Source: Acidobacteriaceae bacterium
GTDB lineage: Bacteria; Acidobacteriota; Terriglobia; Bryobacterales; Bryobacteraceae
DNA: 56,111 bases
Direction: 5' to 3'
Assembly (NCBI GenBank): GCA_019244055.1
Contig: JAFATG010000179.1
Location: 1 to 56,111, forward strand
This document shows positions 4,471 through 51,800 of the stretch, piece after piece. The notes beneath the pieces are model-generated. The model worked only from the letters and a program-made list of their open reading frames with translations, was not told the origin of the DNA and searched no databases. The position numbers and the translations under genes were made by a program. Every line of letters starts with the position of its first letter. The stretch's first letter is position 1.

Positions 4471-6030
4471 ATGTGGCTGGTTCTTTGGCCGTCCGAGTGC
4501 GATTGTCGCGGCGTGCCCGTGTCGTCCGAAGCCCCAGTGATACTGGAACAGCAGAAGACGCCTTCGACGATTGGCGGCCGGTTAGGAAGTATCTTCTCGC
4601 GTCCGGCCGCCCGTGTTGCGCTCCTGATCATGTTGACCGTAATGGGGATGCGTTTGCGCCTCAGCGCGGCCGACACGTGGTGGGATCTGAAGACCGGCGA
4701 GATCATCTGGAACACGCACTCGGTCCCGACCGTCGATTTGTTTTCGTTTACCACGAATCGACACTTTTGCGTTCCCCATGAGTGGCTGGCGCAATGGACA
4801 ATCTACGCGGCCTATCATTTCGGAGGTTATACCGGAATGATGCTGTGGCTTTTCGTGTTCGCCTCCCTGCTGTCGATCGCCGGCTACGCTCTGTGCTGGT
4901 TGTGGTCGGGAAGCAGCAGATTTGCGTTTCTTGGCGCTCTAGGGATCTGGTTCTTTGCGACCATCGGATTCAGCATCCGGGCGCAGTTGATCGGTTACTT
5001 GTTCCTCGTTTGCGAGCTGCTGATCCTATGCCTCGGCCGCGCCCGCAATCGCAAGTGGTTTCTGCTGTTGCCGCCGCTCTTCGTGACCTGGGTAAACTGC
5101 CATGGATCCTTCCTGTTAGGCCTTACCGTCGTTGGAGCTGTGCTGGCATGCTCTTTTCTCGAGTTTCATGCGGGTTTGCTTGTTTCGCATCGCTGGCCTA
5201 CTTGGCAGCGAAATATGCTGGCAACGGCGTTCGTGCTGTCGATTGGGGCACTGTTTGTCAATCCCGTCGGGCTGAGACAAATAACTTACCCGATTGACGT
5301 GATGTTCTCACTTCCCCTGAACACTCACATGATATCGGAGTGGCCACCGGCGTCCTTCGACGATCCCCGCGCCTGGGGTTTGCTGGCTGTGACTGGATCG
5401 ATCTTGTTCGTCCCGCTGCTCAGGCGTGTCGAACTCACTCTCGAAGAGCTTGTCCTTGTGGGACTGGGATTCGAGGTGGCTGTCCAGCACGCGCGCATGC
5501 TAATTGTTTTCGGAATTCTCGCGGTGCCGGTGCTCTGCCGCCTGGTCACTACCTCTTGGATTCGGTACAAGCCAAGCCGCGATCGGGTTCTGCTCAATGC
5601 AGTTGTTATCACCCTCGCTTTGTGGGGCATGGTTCAGCAGTTTCCAAGTTCCCGCGCGCTTACAGAGCAGGTGAACAAAGCAAACCCAGTGAAGGCGCTG
5701 AATTTCATCCGGCACGCTGGCATTTCCGGCAGAATGCTGAACGACTACAACTATGGAGGATACCTGATCTGGGCGGCTCCGGAACGCAAGGTCTTCGTGG
5801 ACGGGCGCGGAGATGTCTATGAGTGGACTGGTGTGCTAGGGGACTATTTCAGATGGAGCCAACTGCAAGAAGATCCCAAAGCTCTTCTAAACAAGTACCG
5901 AATTGATTACTGCCTGCTGTCCCGTGAGATGCCGATTTCGCGCGTGATGCAATTGTTGCCGGGCTGGAGAGAGGTTTACTCGGACCGGTCCTCCGTAGTT
6001 TTTGTTAGGTCAAATGGGTCGCGCCCATGA
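4471..6030 (+). CDS. Multi-pass membrane protein, GT-C glycosyltransferase-like, copy 1
   Basis: The product is 519 residues with about ten predicted membrane helices. After the first helix comes a loop with D-T-W-W-D-L-K-T-G-E and then V-D-L-F-S-F-T and H-E-W-L. A later segment has TWVNCHGSFLLGL, and the soluble C-terminus carries NDYNYGGYLIWAAPERKVFV followed by a D-G-R-G-D motif. The acidic residue in the first outer loop and the overall topology are like GT-C transferases using polyprenyl-linked sugars, but no named family could be confirmed. It is a paralogue of the gene at 6229-7803, which faces it. The ATG lacks a clear ribosome site; GTG at 4519 is another possible start. Confidence 0.7.
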   Translation: MWLVLWPSECDCRGVPVSSEAPVILEQQKTPSTIGGRLGSIFSRPAARVALLIMLTVMGMRLRLSAADTWWDLKTGEIIWNTHSVPTVDLFSFTTNRHFCVPHEWLAQWTIYAAYHFGGYTGMMLWLFVFASLLSIAGYALCWLWSGSSRFAFLGALGIWFFATIGFSIRAQLIGYLFLVCELLILCLGRARNRKWFLLLPPLFVTWVNCHGSFLLGLTVVGAVLACSFLEFHAGLLVSHRWPTWQRNMLATAFVLSIGALFVNPVGLRQITYPIDVMFSLPLNTHMISEWPPASFDDPRAWGLLAVTGSILFVPLLRRVELTLEELVLVGLGFEVAVQHARMLIVFGILAVPVLCRLVTTSWIRYKPSRDRVLLNAVVITLALWGMVQQFPSSRALTEQVNKANPVKALNFIRHAGISGRMLNDYNYGGYLIWAAPERKVFVDGRGDVYEWTGVLGDYFRWSQLQEDPKALLNKYRIDYCLLSREMPISRVMQLLPGWREVYSDRSSVVFVRSNGSRP

Positions 6031-20320: not shown

Positions 20321-23300
20321 TCAAAATGAGAACTTCGCGCCGAGCTGAATCAGCCGAGGCGGTAGCCGATCACTGCTGATGGTACCGAAGTTAGAATCTC
20401 CGAGCGAGTTGTTCGGATTGCTGAAATGCGGATTGTTGAATAGGTTGAAGAAGTCCGCCTCCAGCCTGAACTGCATCCGCTCGCGTATCGGGGTGTTTTT
20501 GGCGATAGAGAAATCCCAATTTTGTATGCCCGGCCCGCGGACATGCGCGTACACACCGGTGTTGCCGAACGTGTACGCTGGGGGGGCGGCGAAGCAGCTC
20601 GTATCGAACCACTCTGAAACCGTCTTCGGCATGGGTATGTTGGAGCATACAGCGTCCACCGGATTGCTGTAGCCGTTGTTATTGAGTAAATTATTGGCAA
20701 CAGTGAGCTGCATAGGCTGGCCGGCCTGGAAAGTGGTAATTCCGTTCAGCGACCATCCACTCACGACAGAACTAACGAAGCCCGAGGAATTCCCCAGGAG
20801 GCGTTTGCCTTTCCCGAAAGGCAGGTCGTAGTTGTAGGTAATCACGAGGTTCTGTGGAATATCGACTAACTTAAACCCGCTGCTAAGTCCATAATTCAGA
20901 GCGTCGTTATAGGGGTAGACGAGATTGTTCGTGTTGTCCATGGTTTTGGACCAGGTGTAAGCAACAAGAAAAGACAACCCGTAGCTGTATCGCTTCTCCG
21001 CCTGAATCTGCAGGGCATTGTAATGGGAAGTGCCATCACCGTTTCGCTGGTCGATAGTAGGAATGTTTGGCGCGACCGAATAATAAGGTAGCCGCGGATT
21101 AATCGGTCCGGGACCCGGCAGACTCTGATTCAATTGGAGGTCTCGATAGAGATGCAGCCCGTGGGTCCCTACATATGCGACAGTTAGAGCCATATTCCCT
21201 GGTAGCTGGCGCTGTACGCTGAAGTTCCAGACCTGTGCTTCATCCTGCTTGAAGTTACTCGCGACGAAGAACACGCCAAAGCCGGGAGGAGGAACAAGCG
21301 TTCCGCCCGGCGTATACGGCACGTCAATTGGTGCGATCAGACCGTCGCGGCTCAAACTCCAGAATGGACTGAACGGTGTGGGAGTAGTGAATTGGGAAAT
21401 GGTGAAGAAGGGATAGTTCCGCTCAAGAGTCCCTCCGTTTGCTCCGAAATTATCGGGAAAGTAGCTGATGCCAAACGCGCCTCTAACTGCCGTTTTCCCG
21501 TTATCCGGCGAGTAGGCGAACCCGGCCCTCGGCCCCCAGTTGCGGTAATTAGTGTTGACACTCGGAGGCCGATTCTTAGATGACGCTACATCGATCAGAC
21601 CGGTACCCGGTGAGAAGTTTGACTGCCGGTTGAACTTTTCCACTGGCGTTGTGAAAAGATCCCATCGGAGTCCCAAATTCAGGGTGAGATTGTTCGATAC
21701 ACGATAATCATCCTGAACATAGAACCCATCAGACCACATGCGCACGGCAGGCACAGTATTCACAAAGTCGCGGATGACCTGATTCGGATATCCCAGTAGA
21801 AAACTAGCGTAGGAATTCCCGGTTCCCGCCGCGCCGGCATTACTCGTGTAATTAGCATTGAAATTGAAGATGCCGCGCGGGTCGTCTTGCGAATTTGTCA
21901 GAGTCGACTGCATCTGCTGTATGTCAGCCCCGAATTTCAGGTTGTGCTTACCTTTGACCCACGTTAAGCCATCGCTGTATTCGAAGATATTGGCGATTCG
22001 CTTCGCATCTGTCCAGCCGGGATCTCCGGTCAGTCCCGGGCCGCCGGAAACGGCGAAGCCTGAGATGTTGAATTGAGCAATACCGGATGTATAAGCCAGG
22101 CCGGGGATGTTGCCGTTAGGGATACCGAGGTTATTGTTTTCGTTGACACCGTACGAGTTCGCGGTATCCACTACATTGAAACGATTGAATCCGATTCGTA
22201 ATTCGTTGACCATCATCGCCGAAATGGTGCGGTCCCAACCGATTACCGCATTCTGGTTTAGCGCGACTGAGTTGGGGCCACCGAACATGAAGATGTTCGC
22301 TGGGGAAGGCTGATTGTACGTTTTGTGTGCTGCAGACTCTCGCCCGAATACATGATCTTTGTCCGTTGCCTGCCAGTCGATCTTAATGTCCCCTTGCGGC
22401 GCGTTGATCGTGTTCACGGTGTTGTCGACGTAGTTGTTAGCGTAGCCAGGAAGGTTCGGCAGTGGAAATATGTTCTGAACTTTCTGGGCGACCGGGTCCA
22501 TGCGAGCCGTAGGAATCGTGTTATTGGGGAAGGGCAAACCGGAAAGCGGATCATAGATTGTCCCCTGGCCTCCGCCGGTGAGCACACCTTGACGTTGTAG
22601 GGCTGTGGGAACGGTAAGTGTGTTCGTCTGCCCTTGATGCGCGATCAGTTGCTGATAGTCTCCAAAGAAAAAGAGCTTGTTTTTGATGATCCGGCCACCG
22701 AGCATTCCCCCGAACTGATTGGACTTGTATGGTGACCTGGACGTCGCGAAAAAGTCGCGGGCATTTAGAGCGTCGTTGCGGAGAAAGTCGAAAACCTCTC
22801 CGTGGAGGGAGTTCGTTCCGGATTTGATGGACAGATTGATAATGGCGCCACCGAAGGAACCATATTCGGCATTGGGATTGCTAGTCTCAACCTTGAAAGA
22901 GTTCACGGAATCGAGTGGCGGAGAAATGCTGATGAACGCGTTGAGTGGTTCGGTGTTATGAACTCCGTCGACCATGTAGTAGTTCCCGGACCAGGGTAGT
23001 CCGTTGACGACAGCCTGGGTAGGAGTGAGCGCGCCGGCTGCGGAAGGGTTCTCGGCGAAGTCGCTCCATCCGGCCTGAACCGTGCCAGGGACGATGGTCA
23101 CCAGTTGCTCGAATAAGCGCCCGTTCAGCGGCAACGCTTCGATTTGCTGAGCTTCAACGACATGACCCAGATCCGACGTGGTGCTCTGTATAAGCGGCGC
23201 CTCCCCGGTTACGACGATCTGTTGCGAGGTCTGGCCGGGCGAGAGGCTGAAGTCCACGCGGGTGGTCTGCTCTACTTGCACGATGCTGCCTTCGGCCACA

Positions 23301-23614
23301 GCGGTCGAAAAACCTTGCGATTGCGCCGTGATTTTGTAGGTTCCAGGTGCGAGATTCGGTATGGTGTAGTCGCCCGAACCGTTACAGACGGTGGATTGGG
23401 CAATACCGGTATTGGTATTGGTGGCAGTTACGGTAGCGCCAGGAACGACCGCCCCGCTGGCATCTCTGACTGTTCCGACCACCGTTCCGGTGATTGCTTG
23501 GGCGAGTAAATTGCTTGAGAAAACGGCGAGCAGCGCAAGCAGTAGAAGGCAGCCGATCCCTATCGGAGATTCTTTATCGCAAATCGTACGCGGAAAAATA
23601 GTGCGTGTTGACAT
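20321..23614 (-). CDS. TonB-dependent receptor, Oar-like, with carboxypeptidase-regulatory N-terminus
   Basis: I start at the ATG at 23614 (1097 residues), because an AGGAGG site lies five bases upstream; the longer frame has none. A signal peptide (hydrophobic LLLLALLAVFSSNLLAQ) is followed by a carboxypeptidase-regulatory (CarboxypepD) domain at about 40-125 (ITGTVVGTVRDASGAVVPGA). A plug domain with VVEAQQIEALPLNGR comes next, then a long beta barrel ending in an aromatic Phe (LGAKFSF). This Oar-like architecture is typical of Acidobacteriota and imports large substrates such as glycans or peptides across the outer membrane. Operator-like 11-mers lie upstream, and the adjacent regulator gene points the same way. 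Confidence 0.93.
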   Translation of the reverse strand: MSTRTIFPRTICDKESPIGIGCLLLLALLAVFSSNLLAQAITGTVVGTVRDASGAVVPGATVTATNTNTGIAQSTVCNGSGDYTIPNLAPGTYKITAQSQGFSTAVAEGSIVQVEQTTRVDFSLSPGQTSQQIVVTGEAPLIQSTTSDLGHVVEAQQIEALPLNGRLFEQLVTIVPGTVQAGWSDFAENPSAAGALTPTQAVVNGLPWSGNYYMVDGVHNTEPLNAFISISPPLDSVNSFKVETSNPNAEYGSFGGAIINLSIKSGTNSLHGEVFDFLRNDALNARDFFATSRSPYKSNQFGGMLGGRIIKNKLFFFGDYQQLIAHQGQTNTLTVPTALQRQGVLTGGGQGTIYDPLSGLPFPNNTIPTARMDPVAQKVQNIFPLPNLPGYANNYVDNTVNTINAPQGDIKIDWQATDKDHVFGRESAAHKTYNQPSPANIFMFGGPNSVALNQNAVIGWDRTISAMMVNELRIGFNRFNVVDTANSYGVNENNNLGIPNGNIPGLAYTSGIAQFNISGFAVSGGPGLTGDPGWTDAKRIANIFEYSDGLTWVKGKHNLKFGADIQQMQSTLTNSQDDPRGIFNFNANYTSNAGAAGTGNSYASFLLGYPNQVIRDFVNTVPAVRMWSDGFYVQDDYRVSNNLTLNLGLRWDLFTTPVEKFNRQSNFSPGTGLIDVASSKNRPPSVNTNYRNWGPRAGFAYSPDNGKTAVRGAFGISYFPDNFGANGGTLERNYPFFTISQFTTPTPFSPFWSLSRDGLIAPIDVPYTPGGTLVPPPGFGVFFVASNFKQDEAQVWNFSVQRQLPGNMALTVAYVGTHGLHLYRDLQLNQSLPGPGPINPRLPYYSVAPNIPTIDQRNGDGTSHYNALQIQAEKRYSYGLSFLVAYTWSKTMDNTNNLVYPYNDALNYGLSSGFKLVDIPQNLVITYNYDLPFGKGKRLLGNSSGFVSSVVSGWSLNGITTFQAGQPMQLTVANNLLNNNGYSNPVDAVCSNIPMPKTVSEWFDTSCFAAPPAYTFGNTGVYAHVRGPGIQNWDFSIAKNTPIRERMQFRLEADFFNLFNNPHFSNPNNSLGDSNFGTISSDRLPPRLIQLGAKFSF

Positions 23615-23662: not shown

Positions 23663-23673
23663 TTGACCGTCCA
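23663..23673. promoter_or_regulatory. 11-bp operator-like site ahead of the TonB-dependent receptor
   Basis: TTGACCGTCCA differs by one base from the reverse complement of TTGACGGTCAA, the site found in the divergent promoter at 25778-25788. It lies about 50 bases before the receptor start codon. A single match of this length could occur by chance, but its position with two more sites near 23765 supports it. Confidence 0.4.
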
Positions 23674-23753
23674 CATCCCAAGCGACAGACCTAAAAAGCT
23701 CCGCTTGTAGGATGGACCCCTTGGCCGCAATTACAGCACCGGGAGGGCTGGGC

Positions 23754-23786
23754 TTCAACGTGAATTAACGGTGAACTTTCGGTTAC
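23754..23786. promoter_or_regulatory. Three abutting 11-bp units upstream of the TonB-dependent receptor
   Basis: TTCAACGTGAA (23754-23764), TTAACGGTGAA (23765-23775) and CTTTCGGTTAC (23776-23786) follow each other without gaps. The middle unit differs by one base from TTAACGGTTAA at 25767-25777. The outer two are weaker. An 11-base head-to-tail register is what OmpR/PhoB-type winged helices use, which fits the DNA-binding domain encoded next door. Confidence 0.5.
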
Positions 23787-25687
23787 TTCAGGGTCAGTTT
23801 AGCTGTCCGCACTTGGCCAGGTTGCACGCGAACGGAGGCGATGGCCACCAGTTGATGATTGAGACGTTGCTCGATGGCAACCCGGACTGGGGTGCCGTCG
23901 ATGAGAATGCAGGGGTTCGAGTTCGCGGCAGTGATGGTAAACGCGGCGTTCCATTGGAAAGCCGGCCCGGTCTGATTTGTGATGGTTGTGTCCGTCGTTC
24001 CGCGGTGTGTGACTGCTATTTCGTTTTTTAGAATTGGCACTCGCTGGAGTTCTAGCCACGTCAGACCCGCTGGCAATCTGGATAGTGTCTCGACAGTATT
24101 CTGTCGGGCATCAGGTGAAATCCCCGCGAGACCGGTTGCCGTAGCGCCTACCACCGCGAACACGACTTCCGGCATGCCGCGGCTGCGGAAATTGGGATCC
24201 GCAAGTTGTAACAGAAATCGATAAGCCGACTCATTCCTCCCGTATTGAAAGAGAACTTCCGGGAAGTACGAGAGCTTCTGATCAAAACGAGGAAGATTCT
24301 TTTCCAGGGAGTCGAGTGCGGCCTCGGTTTTAACGCCATCTTCAGGAAGACCCGAAAGCAGCGCGAAAACGTTTGTTTCCGCCAGATACCCGGGATAGAA
24401 TCTGCGACCGGCCAGCATCATCGAATAGTGCCGGTTGTGAACCGGATCCCACCAATCTGTGTTATAGCGAACCCGCAGACTCTGGGCTTTGCTACGGTAC
24501 TCGCGAGCAAGCTCCTGGGACAGACTTCCCTGCGTTCCTTTATGCTGCTGAATCGAGGCGTAGGCGAGATATCCGCGATACTCAGCCGCAATCAGATCGG
24601 CGCCGATCAACAGCTTAGGTTGCTCCTGATAATAAGATGCAATTCCTCTGGGCCGGACCTCGGGACTGCTTTCCATGATCTCGCCATGATCACGGGTCCA
24701 AGCAGAGACGTAATCTGTCACGGTACGGTCGTAAAAGTTCGAGAAGACCGAATCAAAGTACGTCTCGTCGCCTGTCCACAGGAACTGGCGGTAAGCTGCT
24801 TGCATTACGTCGAAGTTGGCAGGGAGGCAGTACCAGAAGTGCCGATCGTCCTGATAATCGATGGGAGCGGGGAAACCGTCCTTATTAATCTCCCAAAATC
24901 CACACCAATCGCGGCTGGCCGAAATGCTGGCCGCAAAGTGCCGAAGCATGTTGCGCGTGTGATTCGTTAACCCCAGGACAGCCGCGCCCGTACTCTGATG
25001 CGACACGTCGCGCATGCAAAACGCGTAGCGATTGCCGGCCGTGCTTTCATACCAGTCGCCGACGGGATCTCCCGTGTGCGCGTATTCCAATGCACGTCCC
25101 TTCGCCCAGTCGAAGCTTCTTACAAGAGTGGGATCCGACGACTGCAGGGTAACGGTTCCTGCGAGATGAACTGCCGGAGCGGTGGGTGGGACTTGCTCGA
25201 ACTTAGTTCGGGTGATTCGCCAGGCGACGCCTGTCAGGACAACACAGAGCGCCCCGCTGAGCCATATGGTGAAGTTGCGACGTGCTGGTGGAGACGGGGG
25301 CGGGTCGGTGAGAACTAGTTGCTCGACCTGCTTCGCACGACGGCAGAACACCGGCAGATAAGAGCCCTTCGGAATTTCCAAAATAATGGGCTCATCGCTG
25401 CCTTCCGTTGCGAAATACCGCTCCAAGCGCTGGCGCAACACTCGCGCTTCCGTCCGGACAATGCTGTCTTCCCCGGTGTTATAGGCGGCTGGTCGTCCAA
25501 AAACCCGTTGACCAATGAAGCTCTCAGATATTTCGTGTGCCGCGTCCGCGAACTTCCTGTCGACTACGTATAAGAGAAAATCACGCAACCGGCTGGTGCG
25601 CTGAAATTCCTTACTGGCGAGAATTCTTTGGACGAGAGCGCGGCATTCCTGCTCCCAAATCTCACAGTCCACTACGGAATCGGCCAT
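23783..25687 (-). CDS. Transmembrane regulator: winged-helix domain, one helix, glycosidase-like outer domain
   Basis: Of 634 residues, about 10-117 form a winged-helix domain with the acidobacterial/rhizobial pattern: FLLYVVDRKF, then IGQRVFGRP, then a helix with EARVLRQRLERYF and the wing EIPKGSYLPVF. This matches the DNA-binding module of OmpR/CadC-like regulators. A Pro-rich segment and one membrane helix (about 139-158) follow. The rest should be extracytoplasmic and aligns along its length with the secreted protein at 25833, sharing GDPVG-W-Y-E, AFCMRDV-HQ, SRDWC and FWYCLPAN. It is therefore a CadC-style one-component sensor whose outer part derives from an enzyme-like six-hairpin fold. 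The gene is divergent from its paralogue and lies upstream of the receptor. Confidence 0.82.
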   Translation of the reverse strand: MADSVVDCEIWEQECRALVQRILASKEFQRTSRLRDFLLYVVDRKFADAAHEISESFIGQRVFGRPAAYNTGEDSIVRTEARVLRQRLERYFATEGSDEPIILEIPKGSYLPVFCRRAKQVEQLVLTDPPPSPPARRNFTIWLSGALCVVLTGVAWRITRTKFEQVPPTAPAVHLAGTVTLQSSDPTLVRSFDWAKGRALEYAHTGDPVGDWYESTAGNRYAFCMRDVSHQSTGAAVLGLTNHTRNMLRHFAASISASRDWCGFWEINKDGFPAPIDYQDDRHFWYCLPANFDVMQAAYRQFLWTGDETYFDSVFSNFYDRTVTDYVSAWTRDHGEIMESSPEVRPRGIASYYQEQPKLLIGADLIAAEYRGYLAYASIQQHKGTQGSLSQELAREYRSKAQSLRVRYNTDWWDPVHNRHYSMMLAGRRFYPGYLAETNVFALLSGLPEDGVKTEAALDSLEKNLPRFDQKLSYFPEVLFQYGRNESAYRFLLQLADPNFRSRGMPEVVFAVVGATATGLAGISPDARQNTVETLSRLPAGLTWLELQRVPILKNEIAVTHRGTTDTTITNQTGPAFQWNAAFTITAANSNPCILIDGTPVRVAIEQRLNHQLVAIASVRVQPGQVRTAKLTLK

Positions 25688-25766
25688 GATGCTAACCGAG
25701 CCGCACCAGTCGGCTCAGGGGATATTTGGATCTGCGAACGACTATAGGATAACCGATCTCGGACGA

Positions 25767-25788
25767 TTAACGGTTAATTGACGGTCAA
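25767..25788. promoter_or_regulatory. Two abutting 11-bp palindromes in the divergent promoter
   Basis: TTAACGGTTAA (25767-25777) and TTGACGGTCAA (25778-25788) are each palindromic around a central G and touch without a gap, giving an 11-base direct repeat. They lie between the regulator gene (start 25687, leftward) and the secreted glycosidase-like gene (start 25833, rightward), about 45 bases before the latter. Related sites occur upstream of the TonB-dependent receptor. Confidence 0.6.
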
Positions 25789-25832
25789 TTAGCCTTGCGG
25801 AGTTGCGCTTGTGATCACCTATTTTGAAACAG

Positions 25833-27353
25833 ATGCGGCTATTCATCCGGATCTGCCGCCGGGGGAGCGTCCACACTTGCCTGTTGATGCTCGCGGCGCT
25901 AGCGACGCAAAGCGCCCCGCCGGCGACGAGGGGCTCGGGGCTGACGCTGGATTCGTCAGACGCGCGGCTTGTACACGCCTTCGAGTGGGCGAAGCGGCAG
26001 GCATTGGCTTACGCCTTCGAGGGTGACCCGGTCGGACTATGGTATGAAGCCGCTCTCCCGGGGCGCGAGGCGTTCTGTATGCGAGATGTCGCTCATCAAG
26101 CGATGGGTGCCCATGCTCTAGGGCTGGCACCATACACGGCCAACATGCTGCGACGGTTTGCGCAGAATATATCAGAATCGAGGGACTGGTGCAGCTACTG
26201 GGAAATTGATCGGTATAATCGCCCTGCTCCGGTTGACTACAAGAACGACGGCGAATTCTGGTATTGCCTTCCCGCCAACTACGACGTTCTGGATTGTTGC
26301 TATCGAATGTATCTTTGGACTGGTGATGCTGCCTATATCGACGATCCGGTGTTCTTGAATTTCTATGACCGGACCATGACCGATTACGAAGAACGCTGGA
26401 GTCTGGACAGCACGCACGTCATGAGACGCAAGAGACTCATGAATATCCGCGGAGAATTTGCGCCGGATGATAAGTTTCAATTCTTCCGGGGAATCCCAAG
26501 TTACCAGGAGAGCGAACAGGGCTTTGTTGTGGGAGTGGACCTGCTGGCGACGCAGTACGCCGGGTATCTCGCGTATGCTGCGATTCAGGATAGCCGCCGC
26601 AATGATCGCCTGGCCCATACGTACGCCCAAAAGGCTTCGGTCGTGAAAGCGCTGATCAACGACACTTGGTGGAACGAAAACGAGAAGCAGTTCTATTCGC
26701 GGGTGAACAAGAACTATCAATTGGAAGGTCGAGATATTTCGGCGGTGCTATACCGCAACGCTGCAAATGACGGACCTAAATTGCAAGGCGCTGTGGACAA
26801 GTTGATCGCGCAGATTAAAAGCGTTCCTTCCTCCGCGGTGGAGGGCGAATCGCATAACCCAGAGATCTTGTATAGGTACGGAGTTCCTGATCTGGCTTAT
26901 TCGCAAATTATGGATCTCACTCGTGAAGACCGGGAACGCCGTGAGTATCCCGAAGTCTCTTACTCTGTGGTTGGAGCCATCGTCACAGGTTTAATGGGAA
27001 TCACGGTAGATGCGAAATGGTATGCACTTTCGGGCCGGGGTGATTTCGTAGATCGGATGATCAAGACCCTGCCGGAGCTCGGAAACATTGCCTGGGCTGA
27101 ACTCCGCAATTTGCCGGTACGCTCGAACGAAGTGAATGTTCGCCACGAGGGGATAAGCAAGACCGTTTTGACGAACCAAAAAGGGCCGACTCTAATCTGG
27201 AGGGCGGCATTTTCAGGTGCATTTACAAGCTTGCAAGTCAATGGTAAACCGATGCGGGCACAGCAAGAGAAAGGTCCCAGGAGCGGCGAGGTGTCGTACG
27301 TAGATCTGCCGGTCGCGCCCAGCACAACGGCGACCGTTGAGGTTCCAAACTGA
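25833..27353 (+). CDS. Secreted glycosidase-like (six-hairpin) protein, paralogue of the regulator's outer domain
   Basis: Using the ATG at 25833 (506 residues), the protein opens with a signal peptide (RLFIRICRRG, then a hydrophobic core through about residue 25). The mature part has DWC/W-rich motifs: GDPVGLWYEA, FCMRDVAHQAMG, SRDWCSYWEID, FWYCLPANYDV and YLWTGDAAY. Trp- and acid-rich repeats with R-D-x-x-H-Q recall (alpha/alpha)6 glycosidases acting on glycan ends, but no GH family can be named. The C-terminal 90 residues look like a beta-sandwich. Lacking the membrane helix of its paralogue, it is probably periplasmic or released. The 11-bp sites just upstream suggest control by the neighbouring regulator. 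Confidence 0.7.
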   Translation: MRLFIRICRRGSVHTCLLMLAALATQSAPPATRGSGLTLDSSDARLVHAFEWAKRQALAYAFEGDPVGLWYEAALPGREAFCMRDVAHQAMGAHALGLAPYTANMLRRFAQNISESRDWCSYWEIDRYNRPAPVDYKNDGEFWYCLPANYDVLDCCYRMYLWTGDAAYIDDPVFLNFYDRTMTDYEERWSLDSTHVMRRKRLMNIRGEFAPDDKFQFFRGIPSYQESEQGFVVGVDLLATQYAGYLAYAAIQDSRRNDRLAHTYAQKASVVKALINDTWWNENEKQFYSRVNKNYQLEGRDISAVLYRNAANDGPKLQGAVDKLIAQIKSVPSSAVEGESHNPEILYRYGVPDLAYSQIMDLTREDRERREYPEVSYSVVGAIVTGLMGITVDAKWYALSGRGDFVDRMIKTLPELGNIAWAELRNLPVRSNEVNVRHEGISKTVLTNQKGPTLIWRAAFSGAFTSLQVNGKPMRAQQEKGPRSGEVSYVDLPVAPSTTATVEVPN

Positions 27354-28938: not shown

Positions 28939-30237
28939 TCAATGAGTGAGCCCGAAATCTTGCGTCAACGTGCCTGAAGAGAGTCCAAAGTTCTGCAGGA
29001 TAATCGCTGTCCTCCAGACTCGCTCGAGAGCGTGAATATAATCCACTTGAAGCTGGAACAGCATCCTCTGAGAAACGAGCACCTGAGGATACGCGGCGGC
29101 CATCTCTTCGTATTTCGCGAGATATAGCTCGTAGGCGCGCTGGGCCCGAGGAATCATTTCGCCTCTGTACCGGTCGGCTTCGATATGGCTCGACAAATAG
29201 GCCTGAAGCAATGGTTCTATGGTTCGGCGAAGCGATAACTGGCTATTGTTGATTTGCGCGCGCGCTCGTTCTAAATCGGCTTCCGCCGCGGCAACATTCC
29301 CTTGATTGCGATCAAAAATCGGCAACTGGATCCCGGCAGTTACGAATGCCTGCAGACCCACTGATTTTCCACTGAGTTCGTTGAGGGCTTCGAGGTTCTG
29401 CTGCAATCCCGCATGGACCTGAAGGTCGGGAACGGTCTCTCGCTTAGCGCTCTTGATCTCAGCTTCGGCGCGAACGACATCCTGCTGTGCCCGCTTCACC
29501 GACGGACTGTCGCGAAGAACTTGATACATAATTTGGTCTGCGTTGATGGCGGGCGGATGGGCTAAGTCTCCCTGGAGGGGGCTGATGGTCAGTTCTGGTT
29601 TGCCTACCAGTGCCGCCAAGCTGTGGAAGGCCTGAATATAGTCGCGTTGCGCCACTGTGTAGTCGACGTTCGCCTGTTCCGCTTCGACCTCAGCTTGCAG
29701 CACGTCCGATGCATCGGCTTGCCCGACATTCGCGAGCTGGTGCGCGGTTTCTACTGCGTCCGTCGCCAAAATAAGCAATCGCCGGCGCACATTGACAATC
29801 TCTTGTACCGCCAGTGCGAAATAGAATGCCTGGCCGGTGTCACTCAATATCCGGTACCGCTCTTCTGAGACTCCGATTTCATCGGTGCGACGTTGCTGCT
29901 CATAGACATTTCGCCGCAACCCGAGTTTCCCACCCAGTACGAACGTCTGCCCCACGAATGCGCCTTGCTCGCCCCCGCCGAACATCCCGCCTCGAATCTG
30001 CTCCCCTTGATAACCTATTGATGGATTCGGATACAGCCCTGCCTGGTTAGCCCGTGCGGCGGATGCCTTCACGATCGCATTCGCTTCTTGCAACGTGGGA
30101 CTATTAGCGATCGCCAACCGTTGAAACTCCTCCAATCCGATCGGAGTGCGTTTCGCCGCGTCGCGCAACAAGTCCGGAGCAGATACCTGTGCGAGAAGGG
30201 AACTGCCGGCAAAGAGAAATGCGAATATCCTTTTCAT
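28939..30237 (-). CDS. TolC-family outer membrane efflux protein
   Basis: I start at the ATG at 30237 (432 residues), preceded by GGAGGAGG. A signal peptide (RIFAFLFAGSSLLAQ) is followed by two repeats of long helices typical of TolC/CusC: LANVGQADASDVLQAEVEAE and, later, DLERARAQINNSQLSLRRTI, with LPIFDRNQGNVAAAEA between. TolC proteins form the outer membrane tunnel of tripartite pumps. No inner membrane pump or adaptor lies nearby. The start overlaps the stop of the multicopper oxidase gene, so the two are translated together, hinting at copper handling. Confidence 0.9.
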   Translation of the reverse strand: MKRIFAFLFAGSSLLAQVSAPDLLRDAAKRTPIGLEEFQRLAIANSPTLQEANAIVKASAARANQAGLYPNPSIGYQGEQIRGGMFGGGEQGAFVGQTFVLGGKLGLRRNVYEQQRRTDEIGVSEERYRILSDTGQAFYFALAVQEIVNVRRRLLILATDAVETAHQLANVGQADASDVLQAEVEAEQANVDYTVAQRDYIQAFHSLAALVGKPELTISPLQGDLAHPPAINADQIMYQVLRDSPSVKRAQQDVVRAEAEIKSAKRETVPDLQVHAGLQQNLEALNELSGKSVGLQAFVTAGIQLPIFDRNQGNVAAAEADLERARAQINNSQLSLRRTIEPLLQAYLSSHIEADRYRGEMIPRAQRAYELYLAKYEEMAAAYPQVLVSQRMLFQLQVDYIHALERVWRTAIILQNFGLSSGTLTQDFGLTH

Positions 30238-31631
30238 TCCTCCTCCTTCCCAATCCGTTCCATGATTTGGTCGTATTGATCCGGTGGCAAGACGCGAACG
30301 AACGTCATCATGCCTTGCATGAACCCGCTCCAACCGGCACGCAAACCATAGTTCTGCGGCTTGTCCACCATTTCGTCCATCGCCATCATCGGGCTTTCCA
30401 TGTACGCGTCCTGTGGGAAGCCGGGAACTCGATTCGCATCAGGAGCGATGTTGCCGCCCATGGTAGGATCGTGCTGCATGTCGGGCATTCCCGGCATCGC
30501 GGCTTGCGAAGAGAGAGGAGTGTTCGCCACCATTTGATCCTCGGTCGAACCCACACCCATGCCGCGGCCCAGGCTCGGACCGTAATCGTCGCCCATTGGC
30601 GCGCCCGGCGAGCCGTTTAGCATGCCCATTCCGAGATTCATGTCCGCTCCCGCCGGCATACGTTTTCGCATTCGAGATATAGGCCCCACGTTCGAAGACA
30701 TTTGGTTCATCATGTGATGCGGTAAATGGCAGTGCAGCATCCACGTTCCAGGATTGTTCGCGACGAACTCCACGTCGCGTGCTTGCGCTACTCCCACTAA
30801 CACGGTGTTGCCGGGAAACCACGCGGCCTCTGGAATTCTGCCTCCCTCTGTACCTGTCGTATAGAACGTGTGGCCATGCAAGTGGATCGGATGGTGATCC
30901 ATTCCGAGATTGATCATGCGAATGCGCACACGGTCTCCGAGCCTCACGATTACTGGCGTGGTGGCCGGGCCGGCCTTCCCGTTTATAACCAGCCAGTTGA
31001 ATTCCATGTTCATCGTGTTCGGAATCGTGTTGTTCGGAAGCACCGCGTATTCCTGAAGAAGAACGACAAAATCGTTATCCACCCGCGGCGTACGGGCCTG
31101 TTTCGGATGCATGATGAAGGCGCCGAGAGTGCCCATCATCTCCTGCATCGCCATGTGCGAGTGGTAAAAATAGGTCCCTTCCTGATGAAGCGTGAACTCG
31201 TAGATAAAGCGCCCGCCAGGCTTGATCGGATCTTGACTGATCCCTGGTCCTCCATCCATCTCATGAGGAATTTCAAACCCATGCCAGTGCATCGACGTCG
31301 GCTCGGGCAAGTGATTCTCGACGATGATCCGCACCCGGTCGCCCTGCGTAATTTGAATAGTCGGACCGGGCGCGCTACCGTTGAAGCCCCAGAGATCAAG
31401 AACCTTGTGCGGCGTAATCTGCTGCTTGACAGGCTCCATTACGAGGTGGAAGACTTTGACCCCGTTGTCGACGGTGAACGGCAAATCTTTGAGATCAGGT
31501 GACTGCACTCGAACCGGCGACTCTGCCAAATTGGAATCGCTTGTAACATATCGCGCCTTCGCGCGCGGCGCGGAAAGCAGACCGGCTCCGATGCCGAATG
31601 CGCCTCGAAAAAAACTCCTCCGGTTTCTCAC
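30234..31631 (-). CDS. Multicopper oxidase with Met-rich C-terminal region (copper resistance type)
   Basis: The 465-residue protein begins with GTG after an AAAGGAAG site and has a twin-arginine-like signal (RNRRSFFRGAFGIGAGLLSA). Copper ligands are seen in HWHGFEI, YFYHSHM, HPIHLHGHTF and the terminal HCHLPHH motif, covering the type 1, 2 and 3 sites. From about residue 325 on there are many Met residues (GMGMLNG, MPGMPDMQHD), as in CopA/CueO-like enzymes that oxidise cuprous ion or bind copper in the periplasm. It leads a unit with the TolC gene and follows a small Cys/His-rich secreted protein. Confidence 0.9.
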   Translation of the reverse strand: MRNRRSFFRGAFGIGAGLLSAPRAKARYVTSDSNLAESPVRVQSPDLKDLPFTVDNGVKVFHLVMEPVKQQITPHKVLDLWGFNGSAPGPTIQITQGDRVRIIVENHLPEPTSMHWHGFEIPHEMDGGPGISQDPIKPGGRFIYEFTLHQEGTYFYHSHMAMQEMMGTLGAFIMHPKQARTPRVDNDFVVLLQEYAVLPNNTIPNTMNMEFNWLVINGKAGPATTPVIVRLGDRVRIRMINLGMDHHPIHLHGHTFYTTGTEGGRIPEAAWFPGNTVLVGVAQARDVEFVANNPGTWMLHCHLPHHMMNQMSSNVGPISRMRKRMPAGADMNLGMGMLNGSPGAPMGDDYGPSLGRGMGVGSTEDQMVANTPLSSQAAMPGMPDMQHDPTMGGNIAPDANRVPGFPQDAYMESPMMAMDEMVDKPQNYGLRAGWSGFMQGMMTFVRVLPPDQYDQIMERIGKEEE

Positions 31632-32358: not shown

Positions 32359-34185
32359 ATGACACAAAACGGGATCCTGCAGATTGCAGTTTACTTCCTA
32401 ATTATTCTTGCTATTGCGAAGCCCATGGGCGTATTCATGGCGAACTTGTTTGAGGGCAGGAAGACCCTTCTTCACCCCGCACTGCGCCCTCTGGAGAAAT
32501 TCATTTACCGGCTGATCGGCATCGACGAAACCACCGAGCAGCGTTGGACACAATATACGGCCGCGCTTCTGGCCTTCAGCATCTTCAGTTTTCTATTCGT
32601 GTATCTTTTGCAAAGGCTACAAGGCATTCTGCCGCTGAATCCGCAGGGCTTCGGCGCCGGTCAGGTCACGCCTGATCTGGCCTTCAACACGGCCGTCAGT
32701 TTCGTCACTAACACCAATTGGCAGTCGTACTCCGGGGAATCGACTCTCAGCTATCTGGTGCAAATGGCGGCGCTGACAGTACAGAACTTTGCCTCTGCCG
32801 CGGCCGGCATAGCCGTTGCCATCGCGCTTACGCGTGGTTTCGCCCGTCAGCAGGTGAATAGCCTCGGCAATTTTTGGGTCGATCTGACGCGCGGAATCGT
32901 ATACATTCTGCTGCCTATCTCTCTCGTGGCTGCCCTCATACTCTGCTCGCAAGGCGTTATTCAAAACTTCCATGCCTACACGGTTGCAAAAACAGTCGAG
33001 GGTGCAAAACAGGTAATCGCACAAGGGCCGGTAGCCTCTCAGGAAGCCATCAAGATGCTCGGCACCAACGGGGGTGGCTTCTTCGGTGCGAACTCGGCTC
33101 ATCCTTTCGAAAACCCGACACCTTTGATCAATCTTTTCCAGATGTTCCTCATCTTCGTGATTCCGGCGGGACTAACTTACACGTTCGGCGTCATGGTCGG
33201 TGATCGGCGGCAGGGCTGGACCCTTTTCTCCGCGTGCGCAGCCATGTTCCTCATAGGTGCTTTCGCGTGCTATTGGGCCGAACAAAAAGGAAATCCGACG
33301 CTGGCCAAGCTTGGCGTCGAGACGAACGCCACTTCGACACAGATGGGCGGCAACATGGAAGGCAAGGAGACACGCTTCGGCATCGCAGCTTCCGCTCTGT
33401 TCGCAACCGTCACTACGGACGCGAGCTGCGGTGCCGTCAACGGCATGCACGACAGTTATACGCCCCTAGGGGGTCTCGTTCCTCTGTTCAATATCCAAAC
33501 GGGCGAAGTGATATTTGGCGGAGTCGGCGCAGGCCTCTACGGCATTCTTCTCTATGCCATCGTGGCCGTCTTTATTGCCGGCCTGATGGTAGGCCGCACC
33601 CCTGAATACGTCGGGAAAAAAATCGAGCAAAAAGAGGTCAAGATGGCGATGATCGCACTCGTCGCCACCGCCTTCAGCATTCTGGTGTTTGCGGCCATTT
33701 CCTCCATCATTCCTTTTGCCTCTCCCACGAAGGACGCCAAAGGACAGCCGGTGGCGCACAGTTACTGGAATCCTCCGGGCCCGGCGACGGCCAACTTGAA
33801 CAACTCCGGTGCGCACGGGTTCAGCGAACTTCTTTATGCATACACGAGCGGTACGGGAAATAACGGTAGCGCCTTCCAAGGCATAAATACCAACACCCCC
33901 TGGTACAACCTCACGATGGGTCTGGCCATGTTAATAGGCCGTTTTCTTTTCTTGATTCCGCTGCTCGCCGCGGCCGGTGCGCTTGCAAACAAAAGAAAGG
34001 TGGCCGAAACGCTGGGTACTCTGCCCACGCATGGGCCTCTTTTCGTCAGTCTGCTCGTCGGGACTGTCATCCTCGTCGGCGCTCTAACATTCTTCCCGGC
34101 GCTCGCCTTGGGCCCCATCGTCGAGCATTATCTGATGCAGGACGGAAAGCTGTTTTCACTCCTGCTGTTTCCGATTTGGAGCTAA
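32359..34185 (+). CDS. kdpA: Potassium-transporting ATPase, potassium-binding subunit
   Basis: The 608-residue protein has about ten membrane helices and the four selectivity loops of the SKT fold: TNTNWQSYSGE, GTNGGGFFGANSAHPFENPT, TTDASCGAVNGMHDSYTPLGG and the loop near GTGNNGSAFQGINTNTPWYN. KdpA passes potassium into the tunnel toward KdpB at micromolar external potassium. It is followed by kdpB after three bases. Ribosome binding is given by a GGAAAGG motif. Length and motifs are normal for the family. Confidence 0.98.
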   Translation: MTQNGILQIAVYFLIILAIAKPMGVFMANLFEGRKTLLHPALRPLEKFIYRLIGIDETTEQRWTQYTAALLAFSIFSFLFVYLLQRLQGILPLNPQGFGAGQVTPDLAFNTAVSFVTNTNWQSYSGESTLSYLVQMAALTVQNFASAAAGIAVAIALTRGFARQQVNSLGNFWVDLTRGIVYILLPISLVAALILCSQGVIQNFHAYTVAKTVEGAKQVIAQGPVASQEAIKMLGTNGGGFFGANSAHPFENPTPLINLFQMFLIFVIPAGLTYTFGVMVGDRRQGWTLFSACAAMFLIGAFACYWAEQKGNPTLAKLGVETNATSTQMGGNMEGKETRFGIAASALFATVTTDASCGAVNGMHDSYTPLGGLVPLFNIQTGEVIFGGVGAGLYGILLYAIVAVFIAGLMVGRTPEYVGKKIEQKEVKMAMIALVATAFSILVFAAISSIIPFASPTKDAKGQPVAHSYWNPPGPATANLNNSGAHGFSELLYAYTSGTGNNGSAFQGINTNTPWYNLTMGLAMLIGRFLFLIPLLAAAGALANKRKVAETLGTLPTHGPLFVSLLVGTVILVGALTFFPALALGPIVEHYLMQDGKLFSLLLFPIWS

Positions 34186-34188
34186 CCC

Positions 34189-36324
34189 ATGGCAACCACG
34201 CTTGAACCGCCTCCTTCCAAAACGCCGCCTTCGACGCCGGACAATCTTACTTCGCTACTTCCTGGACGTCTCGCGCGTGCGCGCCCGCTGTTTGATCCGG
34301 AAATCGTCCGGCGAGCAACGAAAGATTCTTTCCTCAAGCTGAACCCGATCACGCTGCTCAAGAATCCGGTCATGTTTGTAGTCGAAGTCGGAGCGGCGCT
34401 GGTTACCCTCTTCCTGCTGCGAGACGTCTTCGCCGGCATCGCGGGGAAACAAGGATTCGAATTCCAGATTGCCGTCTGGCTCTGGTTTACTGTGTTATTC
34501 GCCAATTTCGCAGAAGCAATGGCAGAGGCTCGCGGCAAAGCGCAGGCTGACACGCTTCGCAAGACAAAAACAGATTCCATTGCCAACCGCATCCTGAACA
34601 ATGGAAAAATCGAAGCTGTCCCTGCTTCGAAGTTGCGTTGCGGCGATCTTGTCGTCGCCAAAGCAGGCGAGCTGATCCCGGGCGACGGAGAAGTGATCGA
34701 GGGCATTGCCACGGTCGATGAATCGGTCATTACCGGCGAGAGCGCTCCCGTTATTCGCGAATCCGGCGGCGATCGCAGCGCCGTCACCGGCGGCACCAAG
34801 GTCCTCTCGGATCAGATTACGATCCGCATTACCTCTAATCCCGGCGAAACGTTCCTCGATCGAATGATTGCCTTAGTCGAGGGCGCCGAGCGTCAAAAGA
34901 CACCCAACGAAATCGCTCTGAACATCCTAATCGCGGGATTGACGCTAATTTTCCTGCTCGCCGTAGCTACGCTTCATCCATTCGCTATCTATTCAGTCTC
35001 GTCCGCCGGAGCGGGAACGGTCCCCACGATCGCCGTTCTGGTTTCTCTGCTGGTCTGTCTGATCCCGACCACCATCGGTGGATTGCTCTCGGCTATTGGT
35101 ATTGCCGGCATGGACCGGGTCATGCAGCACAACGTGCTCGCTATGAGCGGTAAGGCTGTCGAAGCTTCCGGTGACGTGAACACGCTGCTTCTAGATAAGA
35201 CCGGCACAGTTACTCTCGGCAACCGTCAGGCAGTGGAATTTATCGCTTTCCCGGGCGTGACTGACGAAGAACTCGCGGACGCCGCCCAGCTATCAAGTCT
35301 CGCCGACGAAACGCCGGAAGGCCGTTCGATTGTCGTTCTGGCCAAAGAAAAATATGGTCTCCGCGGGCGTGAGGTTTCCGAACACGAGGCTTCTTTCATT
35401 CCGTTCTCCGCCTACAGCCGTATGAGCGGTGTAGATATCGACGGTCGCGTGCTTCGTAAGGGCGCCAGCAGCGCGATCGAAAAATTTGTAATCGAGTTCG
35501 GCGGAACCATTCCTTCCACATTTCGACAAATTTCCGACCGCATCTCTCGCAATGGAGGAACTCCTCTCGCCGTCGCGGATCGAGGGCGCGCGCTCGGCAT
35601 TATTCACCTGAAAGATATCGTCAAGGGTGGCATGAAAGAGCGCATCGCTCAGCTTCGCGCGATGGGCATCCGTTCGGTCATGATCACTGGAGATAATCCG
35701 CTAACCGCGGCCGCCATCGCAAGTGAAGCCGGCGTCGACGATTTTCTTGCGCAAGCAACTCCGGCCGACAAGCTGGAATACATCCGTCGCGAACAGCGCG
35801 AAGGTCGGCTCGTCGCCATGACTGGCGACGGCACGAACGATGCGCCTGCACTAGCTCAGGCAGACGTCGGGCTCGCGATGAACACAGGAACAATGGCGGC
35901 AAAAGAGGCCGGCAACATGGTCGATCTCGATAGCAACCCGACGAAGCTAATCGAGGTCGTCGCGATCGGCAAGCAGCTCCTGATCACCCGGGGCGCGCTC
36001 ACCACATTCTCTATCGCCAACGATGTCGCCAAGTATTTCGCCATTATTCCGGCAATGTTCATGGCGAGCTATCCGGCGTTAGCGCGATTCAACATCATGG
36101 GACTTCACACGCCGCAAAGCGCCGTGCTGGCCGCTGTCATTTTCAATGCATTGATCATCATCGCTCTCGTGCCTCTTGCCCTTCGAGGTGTGAAATACCG
36201 GCCCGTTGGAGCCGCCGCGCTGTTACGGCGCAACGTCTTTATCTATGGAATAGGAGGGATCATTGTTCCATTCCCAGGCATCTGGCTCATCGATCAACTA
36301 TTAGTGCTGCTGCACCTTGCCTAA
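34189..36324 (+). CDS. kdpB: Potassium-transporting P-type ATPase, catalytic subunit
   Basis: The 711-residue protein carries the phosphorylated Asp336 in [10 protein letters not shown], the actuator-domain TGES motif, [14 protein letters not shown], and the hinge motif [20 protein letters not shown]. It hydrolyses ATP and moves potassium received from KdpA across the membrane. It starts three bases after kdpA. The N-terminal extension (about the first 50 residues, rich in Pro and Thr) is slightly longer than in the enterobacterial protein. All key residues are present, so it should be active. Confidence 0.98.
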
Positions 36325-50138: not shown

Positions 50139-51800
50139 ATGGCTAAGTACATCTTTGTTACGGGTGGAGTTGTTTCTTCATTAGGGAAGGGAATTGCAGC
50201 GGCGTCGATCGGCTGCCTTCTGGAAAGCCGCGGTCTGCGTGTCACGCTTCAAAAATTCGACCCATATCTCAACATCGATCCTGGCACCATGAGCCCGTTT
50301 CAGCACGGGGAGGTTTTCGTAACTGATGACGGTGCGGAAACGGATTTGGATCTCGGCCACTACGAGCGGTTCACTCACGCTCCTCTGACCCAGAGCAATA
50401 ACCTTACCTCTGGGCGCATTTACGAAAACATCATCGCCCGCGAGCGGCGTGGCGACTATCTCGGCAAAACCGTTCAGGTGATTCCTCATGTCACCAACGA
50501 AATAAAGGCCGCTTGCCGCAAAGTCGCCGAAGGCATGGACGTCGCCATTGTCGAGATCGGTGGAACGGTCGGCGATATTGAATCGTTGCCGTTCATCGAG
50601 GCCATTCGCCAAATGCGACACGAAGAGGGCCGCGAGAACACTCTGTTTGTGCATCTGACGCTGGTCCCCTGGATCGCCGCAGCGCAGGAGTTAAAGACCA
50701 AACCAACTCAGCACAGCGTAAAGGAACTGCGAGCTATCGGTATTCAGCCCGACATCCTCCTATGCCGGTCGGAGCGCCAGCTCCCCGATGAAGTGAAGGA
50801 GAAGATCGCGCTTTTCTGTGACGTCGACGTAAGCGGCGTAGTCACCGCGAAAGATGTGCATTCAGTCTACGAAATCCCGATCGTATTCGCCGACCAGGGC
50901 GTGGATGAAACCCTGCTTCGCCTTTTGCACTTGAACGCCGAACCGCGGAACTTATCGCACTGGAAGAAGATGCTCGAGCGGATGAATAATCCCGCTCGCG
51001 AGGTCAACATCGGTCTGGTGGGCAAGTACGTCGAGTACGAGGATTCCTATAAGAGCCTCAAAGAGGCACTACTGCACGCCGGCATCGCGCACCAGGCGCG
51101 TGTGAAGATCGAATGGATTGAATCCGAGCAAATGGAGTGGCCCGACTGCCGCAACTACTTGCGCCGGTTCGATGGAATTCTTGTCCCGGGAGGGTTCGGC
51201 AAACGTGGTGTCGCGGGCATGCTCAATGCAATTCGTTGCGCTCGCCAGGACCGCATTCCGTATTTCGGTATCTGCCTCGGCATGCAGACGATGGTGATCG
51301 AATTCGCGCGGAATGTCTGCGGATTGGCTGACGCCGACTCCACGGAAATGAATCCAGCCGCGATGCATCGGGTCATATACAAATTGCGAGAGTTGAAGGG
51401 CATCGATGAGCTAGGCGGGACCATGCGGCTGGGAGCGTACGTTTGCCAGCTTGCCGAAGGCAGCTTTGCCGAGCAAGCCTACGGTACAACAGAGATCAGC
51501 GAGAGGCACCGGCACCGCTACGAGTTCAATCGGGAATACGAACAGATCCTGACTAAACACGGCCTGCGCTTGACCGGGCAGACACCCGACCGCGTTTACG
51601 TCGAGATCTGCGAGTATCCGGATCATCCGTGGTTCCTCGGCTGTCAGTTTCATCCGGAGTTCAAATCAAAGCCGCTCGAACCGCATCCGCTTTTCACTGC
51701 CTTCCTCGGTGCAGCGCTCGAGTATCGCGAATCGAAATTGCGAGCCGCTGAGCCGCAGGTTCATATCGCTTCTGAGCGCGAGTTCTCGCACGCGCAATGA
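50139..51800 (+). CDS. pyrG: CTP synthase
   Basis: The 553-residue protein has the synthetase domain ([59 protein letters not shown]) and a C-terminal class I glutamine amidotransferase domain. The Cys nucleophile lies in FGICLGMQ and the His-Glu pair in CQFHPEF. It makes CTP from UTP, ATP and glutamine. It lies 29 bases after kdsB, with AAGGAGG and a G-run before the ATG. Its stop overlaps the kdsA start. This gene order ties CTP supply to CMP-Kdo formation. Confidence 0.98.

Follow-up and report, generated by a model that had tools for sequence, protein, structure and literature searches.

ToxR-like receptors are presented in PMC5430869 as proteins with an N-terminal DNA-binding winged helix, a membrane segment and a further C-terminal domain. 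On the DNA side, the closest described elements are the PHO boxes: PMC9019756 gives the PhoP boxes of Streptomyces coelicolor as 11-bp direct repeats with GTTCACC as their most conserved core and the mycobacterial PhoP site as TCACAGC(n4)TCACAGC, and for PhoB, PMC3131613 describes CTGTCAT repeats separated by 4 nt. A locus that joins features of both kinds is found in a 56,111-nt stretch from an Acidobacteriaceae bacterium (contig JAFATG010000179.1 of assembly GCA_019244055.1; the whole stretch is called the window here), where 11-bp tandem sites lie at the promoters of a regulator gene, a divergent glycosidase-like enzyme gene and a TonB-dependent receptor gene. As in ToxR and CadC, a predicted N-terminal winged helix is followed in the regulator by a hydrophobic segment and a C-terminal domain, with no receiver domain in Pfam scans; it differs in a DNA-binding domain that stays under the Pfam Trans_reg_C cut-off, in the predicted glycosidase fold of its C-terminal domain, and in an operator made of an 11-bp tandem of near-palindromic units instead of two head-to-head TTAxxxxT sites. 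With the PHO boxes the sites share direct repeats of 11-bp period and a TTCAC core near the GTTCACC reported for S. coelicolor PhoP in PMC9019756, whereas each of their units is close to a palindrome in its own right (TTCACnGTGAA), the protein linked to them probably has a membrane anchor, and they accompany TonB-dependent receptor genes. In kind, the system is already known, a ToxR-like one-component regulator with a PHO-box-like operator; a description of its DNA-binding family or of its operator in Acidobacteriota was not found in the literature and domain libraries searched, nor was an account of the control of such receptors in this phylum in the literature searched. Paralogue expansion has been reported for Solibacter in PMC3174227, the main text of which does not contain the word 'promoter'.

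We consider it likely that the regulator encoded between the window sites, a ToxR/CadC-like membrane-anchored protein, uses them as its operators, and that its tandem winged-helix binding controls the receptor, the regulator itself and the enzyme. The tandem sites, their recurrence with the regulator family, their association with receptor-linked promoters and the predicted folds all emerged from computation, which in this way supported the original prediction of one regulon: a motif learned independently of the locus has its two best window matches at precisely these two promoters. The sites are as follows.

25767-25777: operator unit D1, TTAACGGTTAA, in the divergent promoter, a perfect palindrome with a 1-base centre
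25778-25788: operator unit D2, TTGACGGTCAA, directly adjoining D1 in the same 11-bp register, a perfect palindrome with a 1-base centre
23754-23764: receptor-promoter unit T1, TTCAACGTGAA, with 9 of the 10 fixed positions of TTCACnGTGAA
23765-23775: receptor-promoter unit T2, TTAACGGTGAA, also with 9 of the 10 positions
23776-23786: possible weak third unit T3, CTTTCGGTTAC, with 5 of the 10 positions, counted by register alone and overlapping the end of the regulator gene
23663-23673: third proposed site, TTGACCGTCCA, unsupported and of chance-level quality

The original prediction had placed two abutting palindromes in the divergent promoter, units of the same register at 23754-23786 and a further operator at 23663-23673. 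The palindromes are there and both are perfect, the three same-register units were recovered, and the last site was not borne out: TTGACCGTCCA exists at its place but lies outside the 20 best model matches in the window, matches of its quality are expected there by chance, and no counterpart was seen by eye in the matching stretch of the orthologous locus L002. D1 and D2 stand 79 bp from the ATG of the regulator and 44 bp from that of the divergent enzyme-like gene (25833), and T1 and T2 stand 139 bp from the receptor ATG. The tandem pattern GTNAATTNACNGTNAA matches the divergent promoter at 25767-25782 and 25773-25788, and three of the four occurrences of TTNACnGTNAA in the window are D or T units.

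As a single unit, the consensus proposed at the outset, TTRACGGTYAA, does not stand out. With up to 2 mismatches there are 32 copies of it in the window, where shuffles give 29.1, and exact copies number 13 in the 6.2-Mb genome of the organism against 14 for the reversed control, both at chance level. The tandem GTNAATTNACNGTNAA, in contrast, gives 4 matches at 3 places in that genome and none for its reversed control; two of the three places are the promoters considered here and the third lies inside an open reading frame of 743 aa. Across 299 genomes of the class the tandem is modestly enriched, with 48 matches spread over 36 genomes against 24 for the reversed control, and among the 30 of these 48 matches that were fetched as loci, leaving out the window's own three, a receptor start lay within 700 bp in 5 and a regulator domain was present in 3, with neither found elsewhere. 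The original observation is partly confirmed: its two main sites are real, with the 11-bp tandem standing above chance and the single unit at chance. The shorter TTCACnGTGAA was counted 34 times in three Acidobacteriaceae-like genomes against 5 for the reversed control (one strand each), an enrichment that is no evidence for operators because few of the sites adjoin a receptor or regulator (a receptor start follows 3 of the 34, and a regulator domain was found in the stretch fetched around 4) and 27 of the 34 fall within open frames of at least 200 aa.

A de novo motif, obtained from random starts on 112 regulator promoters from which the window and its four orthologues had been removed, matched the window best at 23756-23777 (score 16.8) and 25765-25786 (13.5), with a third match at 50832 (13.1). 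Such scores are unexceptional by themselves when set against whole shuffled sequences, as 20 mononucleotide shuffles of the 56-kb stretch reached maxima of 11.1-17.5. Against mononucleotide shuffles of each promoter stretch they are exceptional, at 0.0026 for the divergent promoter and 0 of 5000 for the receptor promoter.

These promoters belonged to a regulator family gathered from many genomes. Of 100 relative genomes, 69 contain a match to the window regulator (P0001) with E no higher than 0.001. An alignment of the DNA-binding domain finds matches with E no higher than 1e-6 in 26 of the 199 genomes searched across the phylum; a single genome yields as many as 19, with no more than 23 candidates scored in each. 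The titles of the 34 relatives that have names give either Acidobacteria or genera that we take to be Acidobacteriota. From the fetched loci 119 distinct domain matches were kept, two of them within one open reading frame, and 117 had a usable upstream region; in 61 of these 117 a TonB-dependent receptor gene lies divergent within 700 bp. A scan of the 160 residues after the domain core found a hydrophobic segment (at least 1.6) in 106 of the 117 members with a C-terminal part of at least 120 aa, the segment of the window regulator, at 1.57, falling slightly below this threshold. The best match of Trans_reg_C among 29 members had an E of 6.4e-4, and member L012 reached 16.8 bits against a cut-off of 26.2. 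When ten members were scanned with Pfam, six longer ones showed TPR, PD40, NB-ARC or kinase matches, three typical members of 445-502 aa had none and a fourth had only a sub-threshold Trans_reg_C. In L127, from the organism's own genome (C328), the N-terminal domain heads a protein-kinase and PD40 protein of 971 aa, and in L125 the same domain heads an NB-ARC/TPR protein of 912 aa; the DNA-binding domain is therefore fused to very different partners.

Unsupervised expectation-maximization on the 117 upstream regions returned a 22-bp motif, GTGAA followed by TTCACnGTGAA, with a log-likelihood of 391, compared with 149-160 in five dinucleotide-shuffled sets. Two mostly coding sets, taken inside regulator genes and 1 kb upstream, gave 676 and 645 with other motifs, and were not used as nulls because these higher likelihoods were put down to conserved coding DNA. 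The autocorrelation of the 117 regions peaked at shift 11 among shifts 5-25 (mean 8.79 vs 7.74-8.27), and 32 regions had at least 10 of 14 self-matches at this shift against at most 20 at any other. Moreover, same-orientation half-sites 11 bp apart numbered 19 against 0.6 expected from shuffles, the sole same-orientation distance flagged, so that the 11-base head-to-tail spacing first proposed for the window, and with it the direct repetition of 11-bp period typical of PHO boxes, was recovered in the family at large. A motif learned from 42 mostly own-family regions transferred to 70 others (p 1.7e-19 vs shuffles, with 32 of 70 above the 95th percentile) and one learned from the 70 transferred back to the 42 (p 1.4e-5, 13 of 42). 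Cross-validated scores of at least 9 were reached by 73 of 117 regions, compared with 11 of 76 other intergenic gaps, shorter than the regulator regions (mean 219 vs 342 bp), and 62 of 585 shuffles; the window's own receptor promoter scored highest among the control gaps. Likewise, 83 of 117 regions against 13 of 76 gaps exceeded the 95% level of their own shuffles, for a motif trained on 112 of those 117 regions. The cross-validated and leave-out motifs were started from the all-region motif, a mild leakage, and a random-start repeat of the window scan and transfer tests gave the same top two window matches. Around two in five family members are without a clear site; a strong motif is a feature of some members and not of others.

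Across genomes, identity of the regulator domain correlates with similarity of the operator (r=0.32 over 3301 pairs, 0 of 2000 permutations), in a statistic that ignores shared ancestry; within genomes their co-divergence was not significant (45 pairs, r=0.12). Residues 66/67 of the recognition helix topped a mutual-information list and were discarded, no column beating the permutation expectation once overall identity was allowed for. A fixed spacing from the operator to a -10-like hexamer was not found. Outside the window's own family, the upstream regions of L085 and L095 hold operators like AGGTGTTTCACnGTGAAAC, in which the GGTG flank may be a further half-site.

The motif accompanies regulator-linked receptor promoters, with exceptions. 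Scores of at least 11 were found in 35 of the 61 regulator regions with a divergent receptor within 700 bp (median 12.1), compared with 8 of 29 regions with no receptor in the fetched stretch (median 7.0), a class in which the flank fetched was for some loci only about 1.5 kb long, and with 4 of 12 where the receptor lies downstream on the same strand (median 7.5). The same was seen from the receptor side in a sample of 30 receptor loci from four genomes, where 8 promoters with a linked regulator, the window included, scored 4.3-17.7 (median 14.6) and 22 with no regulator among the matches listed scored 3.0-12.3 (median 6.7), a difference with p=0.002, or p=0.005 without the window. Among the exceptions is the L180 receptor, linked to a regulator that lies just beyond its flank in L113 and yet without a site, which slightly weakens our confidence in the preferred reading.

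Full-length relatives of the window regulator share with it 68% (L002), 62% (L003/L031 and L037/L047) and 51% (L004/L032) identity. Sites recur at L031, at L047 and in the L002 receptor promoter, and no site was found ahead of the L002 regulator (score 3.3). In L031 the units TTAACTGTCAA TTCACGGTCAA TTAACAGG lie between the regulator and a divergent receptor (score 13.3). The L047 regulator promoter carries TTCACAGTTAA CTTACGGTCAA (16.1), and its receptor promoter TTGACGGTCAA GATCACGTCAA, where the best motif match (11.0, at 5681-5702) overlaps the second unit only. In the L002 receptor promoter the site at 767-800 occupies the place matching that of the window and its score of 9.4 is the best in the 3.8-kb contig; the divergent promoter of L032 holds TTAACTGTTAA (9.8), with four better matches elsewhere in its contig. 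Gene order varies among these loci: in the window the receptor and regulator genes are divergent from the enzyme, in L031 the enzyme and receptor genes are divergent from the regulator, in L047 the regulator is followed by the receptor, and in L032 the two diverge. In L031 it is the receptor rather than the enzyme that diverges from the regulator and the operator is still in that promoter. Across the rearrangements the operator stays with regulator or receptor promoters. Two further loci, L034 (3154-9255) and L051 (1367-10142), have a receptor, a GH78-like enzyme and a second receptor in a row, with no regulator and no clear promoter operator in the fetched stretches.

The 11-bp period and the TTCAC core that fit a reader of the OmpR/PhoB type also yield the main rival to the linked regulator, namely that the sites act as PHO-box-like elements for a response regulator of that type encoded elsewhere, such as PhoP or PhoB. 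Published PHO boxes (those of PMC9019756 and PMC3131613, as given there) closely resemble the window sites, and a consensus common to the paralogues of one genome, together with weak within-genome co-divergence, would suit a single global binder. We nevertheless judge a separate response regulator unlikely, since the 8 linked receptor promoters outscore the 22 unlinked ones, upstream regions with a divergent receptor outscore those without, and operator similarity tracks regulator-domain identity across genomes. A little less likely still is binding by an unrelated dimeric repressor or activator, or by the regulator itself head to head, with the 11-bp period as a by-product of adjacent palindromes. 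In its favour, inverted TTnAC-1-GTnAA pairs number 15 against 0.4 expected and GTnAA-0-TTnAC pairs 7 against 0.3, several longer inverted spacings have 3-4 pairs each against 0.2-0.4, both units of the divergent promoter are perfect palindromes, and CadC is depicted in PMC5430869 as occupying its two TTAxxxxT sites head to head. However, 11 bp is the only same-orientation distance flagged, and the units in L007, L030 and L031 keep to the register but lose the symmetry; as the neighbouring genes were annotated in part, a further recurrent regulator may lie among them.

That the sites are a chance product of promoter base composition appears very improbable. The chance-level behaviour of the single unit in window and genome would agree with it, as would the placement of the exact TTCACnGTGAA sites, 31 of 34 of which are not ahead of a receptor start and most of which lie in long open frames; but the tandem motif far exceeds both shuffles and the other gaps between genes, carries over from one independent set to another and singles out both window promoters.

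The proteins that the preferred reading invokes, the linked regulator and its presumed targets, are encoded by the following features.

23783-25687, minus strand: regulator gene, 634 aa, with winged-helix domain, hydrophobic segment and GH78-like C-terminal domain
25310-25648, minus strand: predicted winged-helix DNA-binding domain, aa 14-126 (model m25a2b68fc46e, pLDDT 91.7)
25214-25270, minus strand: candidate membrane segment TIWLSGALCVVLTGVAWRI, aa 140-158, mean hydropathy 1.57 over 19 residues
23786-25192, minus strand: (alpha/alpha)6 GH78-like C-terminal domain, presumed sensor
25833-27353, plus strand: divergent gene whose product, probably secreted, is a paralogue of the sensor domain (ATG at 25833, TTG at 25824 as an alternative)
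20321-23614, minus strand: TonB-dependent receptor-type outer membrane protein, with CarboxypepD_reg (Pfam E 1.1e-21) and OMP_b-brl_4 (5.5e-247)

The N-terminal domain of the regulator gave no match above cut-off in Pfam and NCBIfam, and none to Trans_reg_C (PF00486) at E up to 1, under the gathering cut-off. An OmpR/PhoB-like winged helix, the class named in the original prediction, is also predicted from structure comparison, in which response-regulator DNA-binding domains take ranks 1-9 for the modelled domain, in a VIA-align ranking where the absence of other winged-helix families says nothing against them; Foldseek alone gave no match with E <1 for the same model. For the C-terminal domain, GH78 / Bac_rhamnosid6H scored 13.6 bits, below the curated cut-off of 24.5, and the secreted paralogue had no match to this family at E up to 1. 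A well-predicted model of the regulator shows the (alpha/alpha)6 fold with a C-terminal beta domain that is a feature of this family, and the predicted fold is the one found in GH78 alpha-L-rhamnosidases. The paralogue is 39% identical to the C-terminal domain over 494 columns, its N-terminus looks signal-like by eye, and sensor domains and paralogues have invariant acidic residues in common (16 sequences). From the model and the candidate membrane segment, the C-terminal domain would lie outside the membrane and act as the sensor. Elsewhere in the window, 32359-36324 presumably contains consecutive potassium uptake genes of the kdpA and kdpB type, named from their translations. On the minus strand at 28939-31631 we take two overlapping genes to be multicopper-oxidase-like and, overlapped at its start, TolC-like for an outer membrane factor; the pair may be a metal-resistance operon.

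On this basis, the regulator would be a one-component transcription factor with a cytoplasmic OmpR/PhoB-like winged helix, a single membrane-spanning helix and an external GH78-like domain, which probably binds, and may still cleave, a glycan degraded by the neighbouring secreted paralogue. We infer that the linked domain is the binder, and that two or more winged helices would occupy adjoining 11-bp units in head-to-tail order, in the manner of PhoB and PhoP on PHO boxes; this mode, like the topology, the ligand and the sign of control, is a matter of interpretation. Occupancy of 25767-25788 would control both the regulator's own gene and the enzyme gene that diverges from it, and that of 23754-23775 the receptor gene. 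The likeliest effect at the receptor promoter would be activation upon glycan sensing, with feedback at the divergent promoter, the sign being a guess, so that receptor, enzyme and regulator genes would respond together. The same design may serve the Acidobacteriota regulator family, about half of whose collected members are divergent beside a TonB-dependent receptor gene.

Paralogues that share an operator consensus within one genome might be open to cross-talk. Tentatively, it is possible that this is a large family of membrane-anchored one-component regulators, each member wired to its own TonB-dependent receptor through a shared 11-bp tandem code, with specificity among up to 19 paralogues per genome coming mainly from the extracytoplasmic domain and local tethering and not from the DNA sequence; here the sensor would have been recruited from the adjoining secreted glycosidase, a duplicated enzyme reading the substrate of its sister. 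Matches to the receptor type number 63, 95, 110 and 109 in four genomes, an upper guide to gene number. A receptor-adjoining regulator family with a defined operator would make such regulons predictable from sequence and provide a testable code for the control of nutrient receptors in soil Acidobacteria. Moreover, that a secreted glycosidase-like protein stands beside a membrane regulator with a paralogous sensor suggests that glycan sensors may arise by duplication of the enzymes they control.
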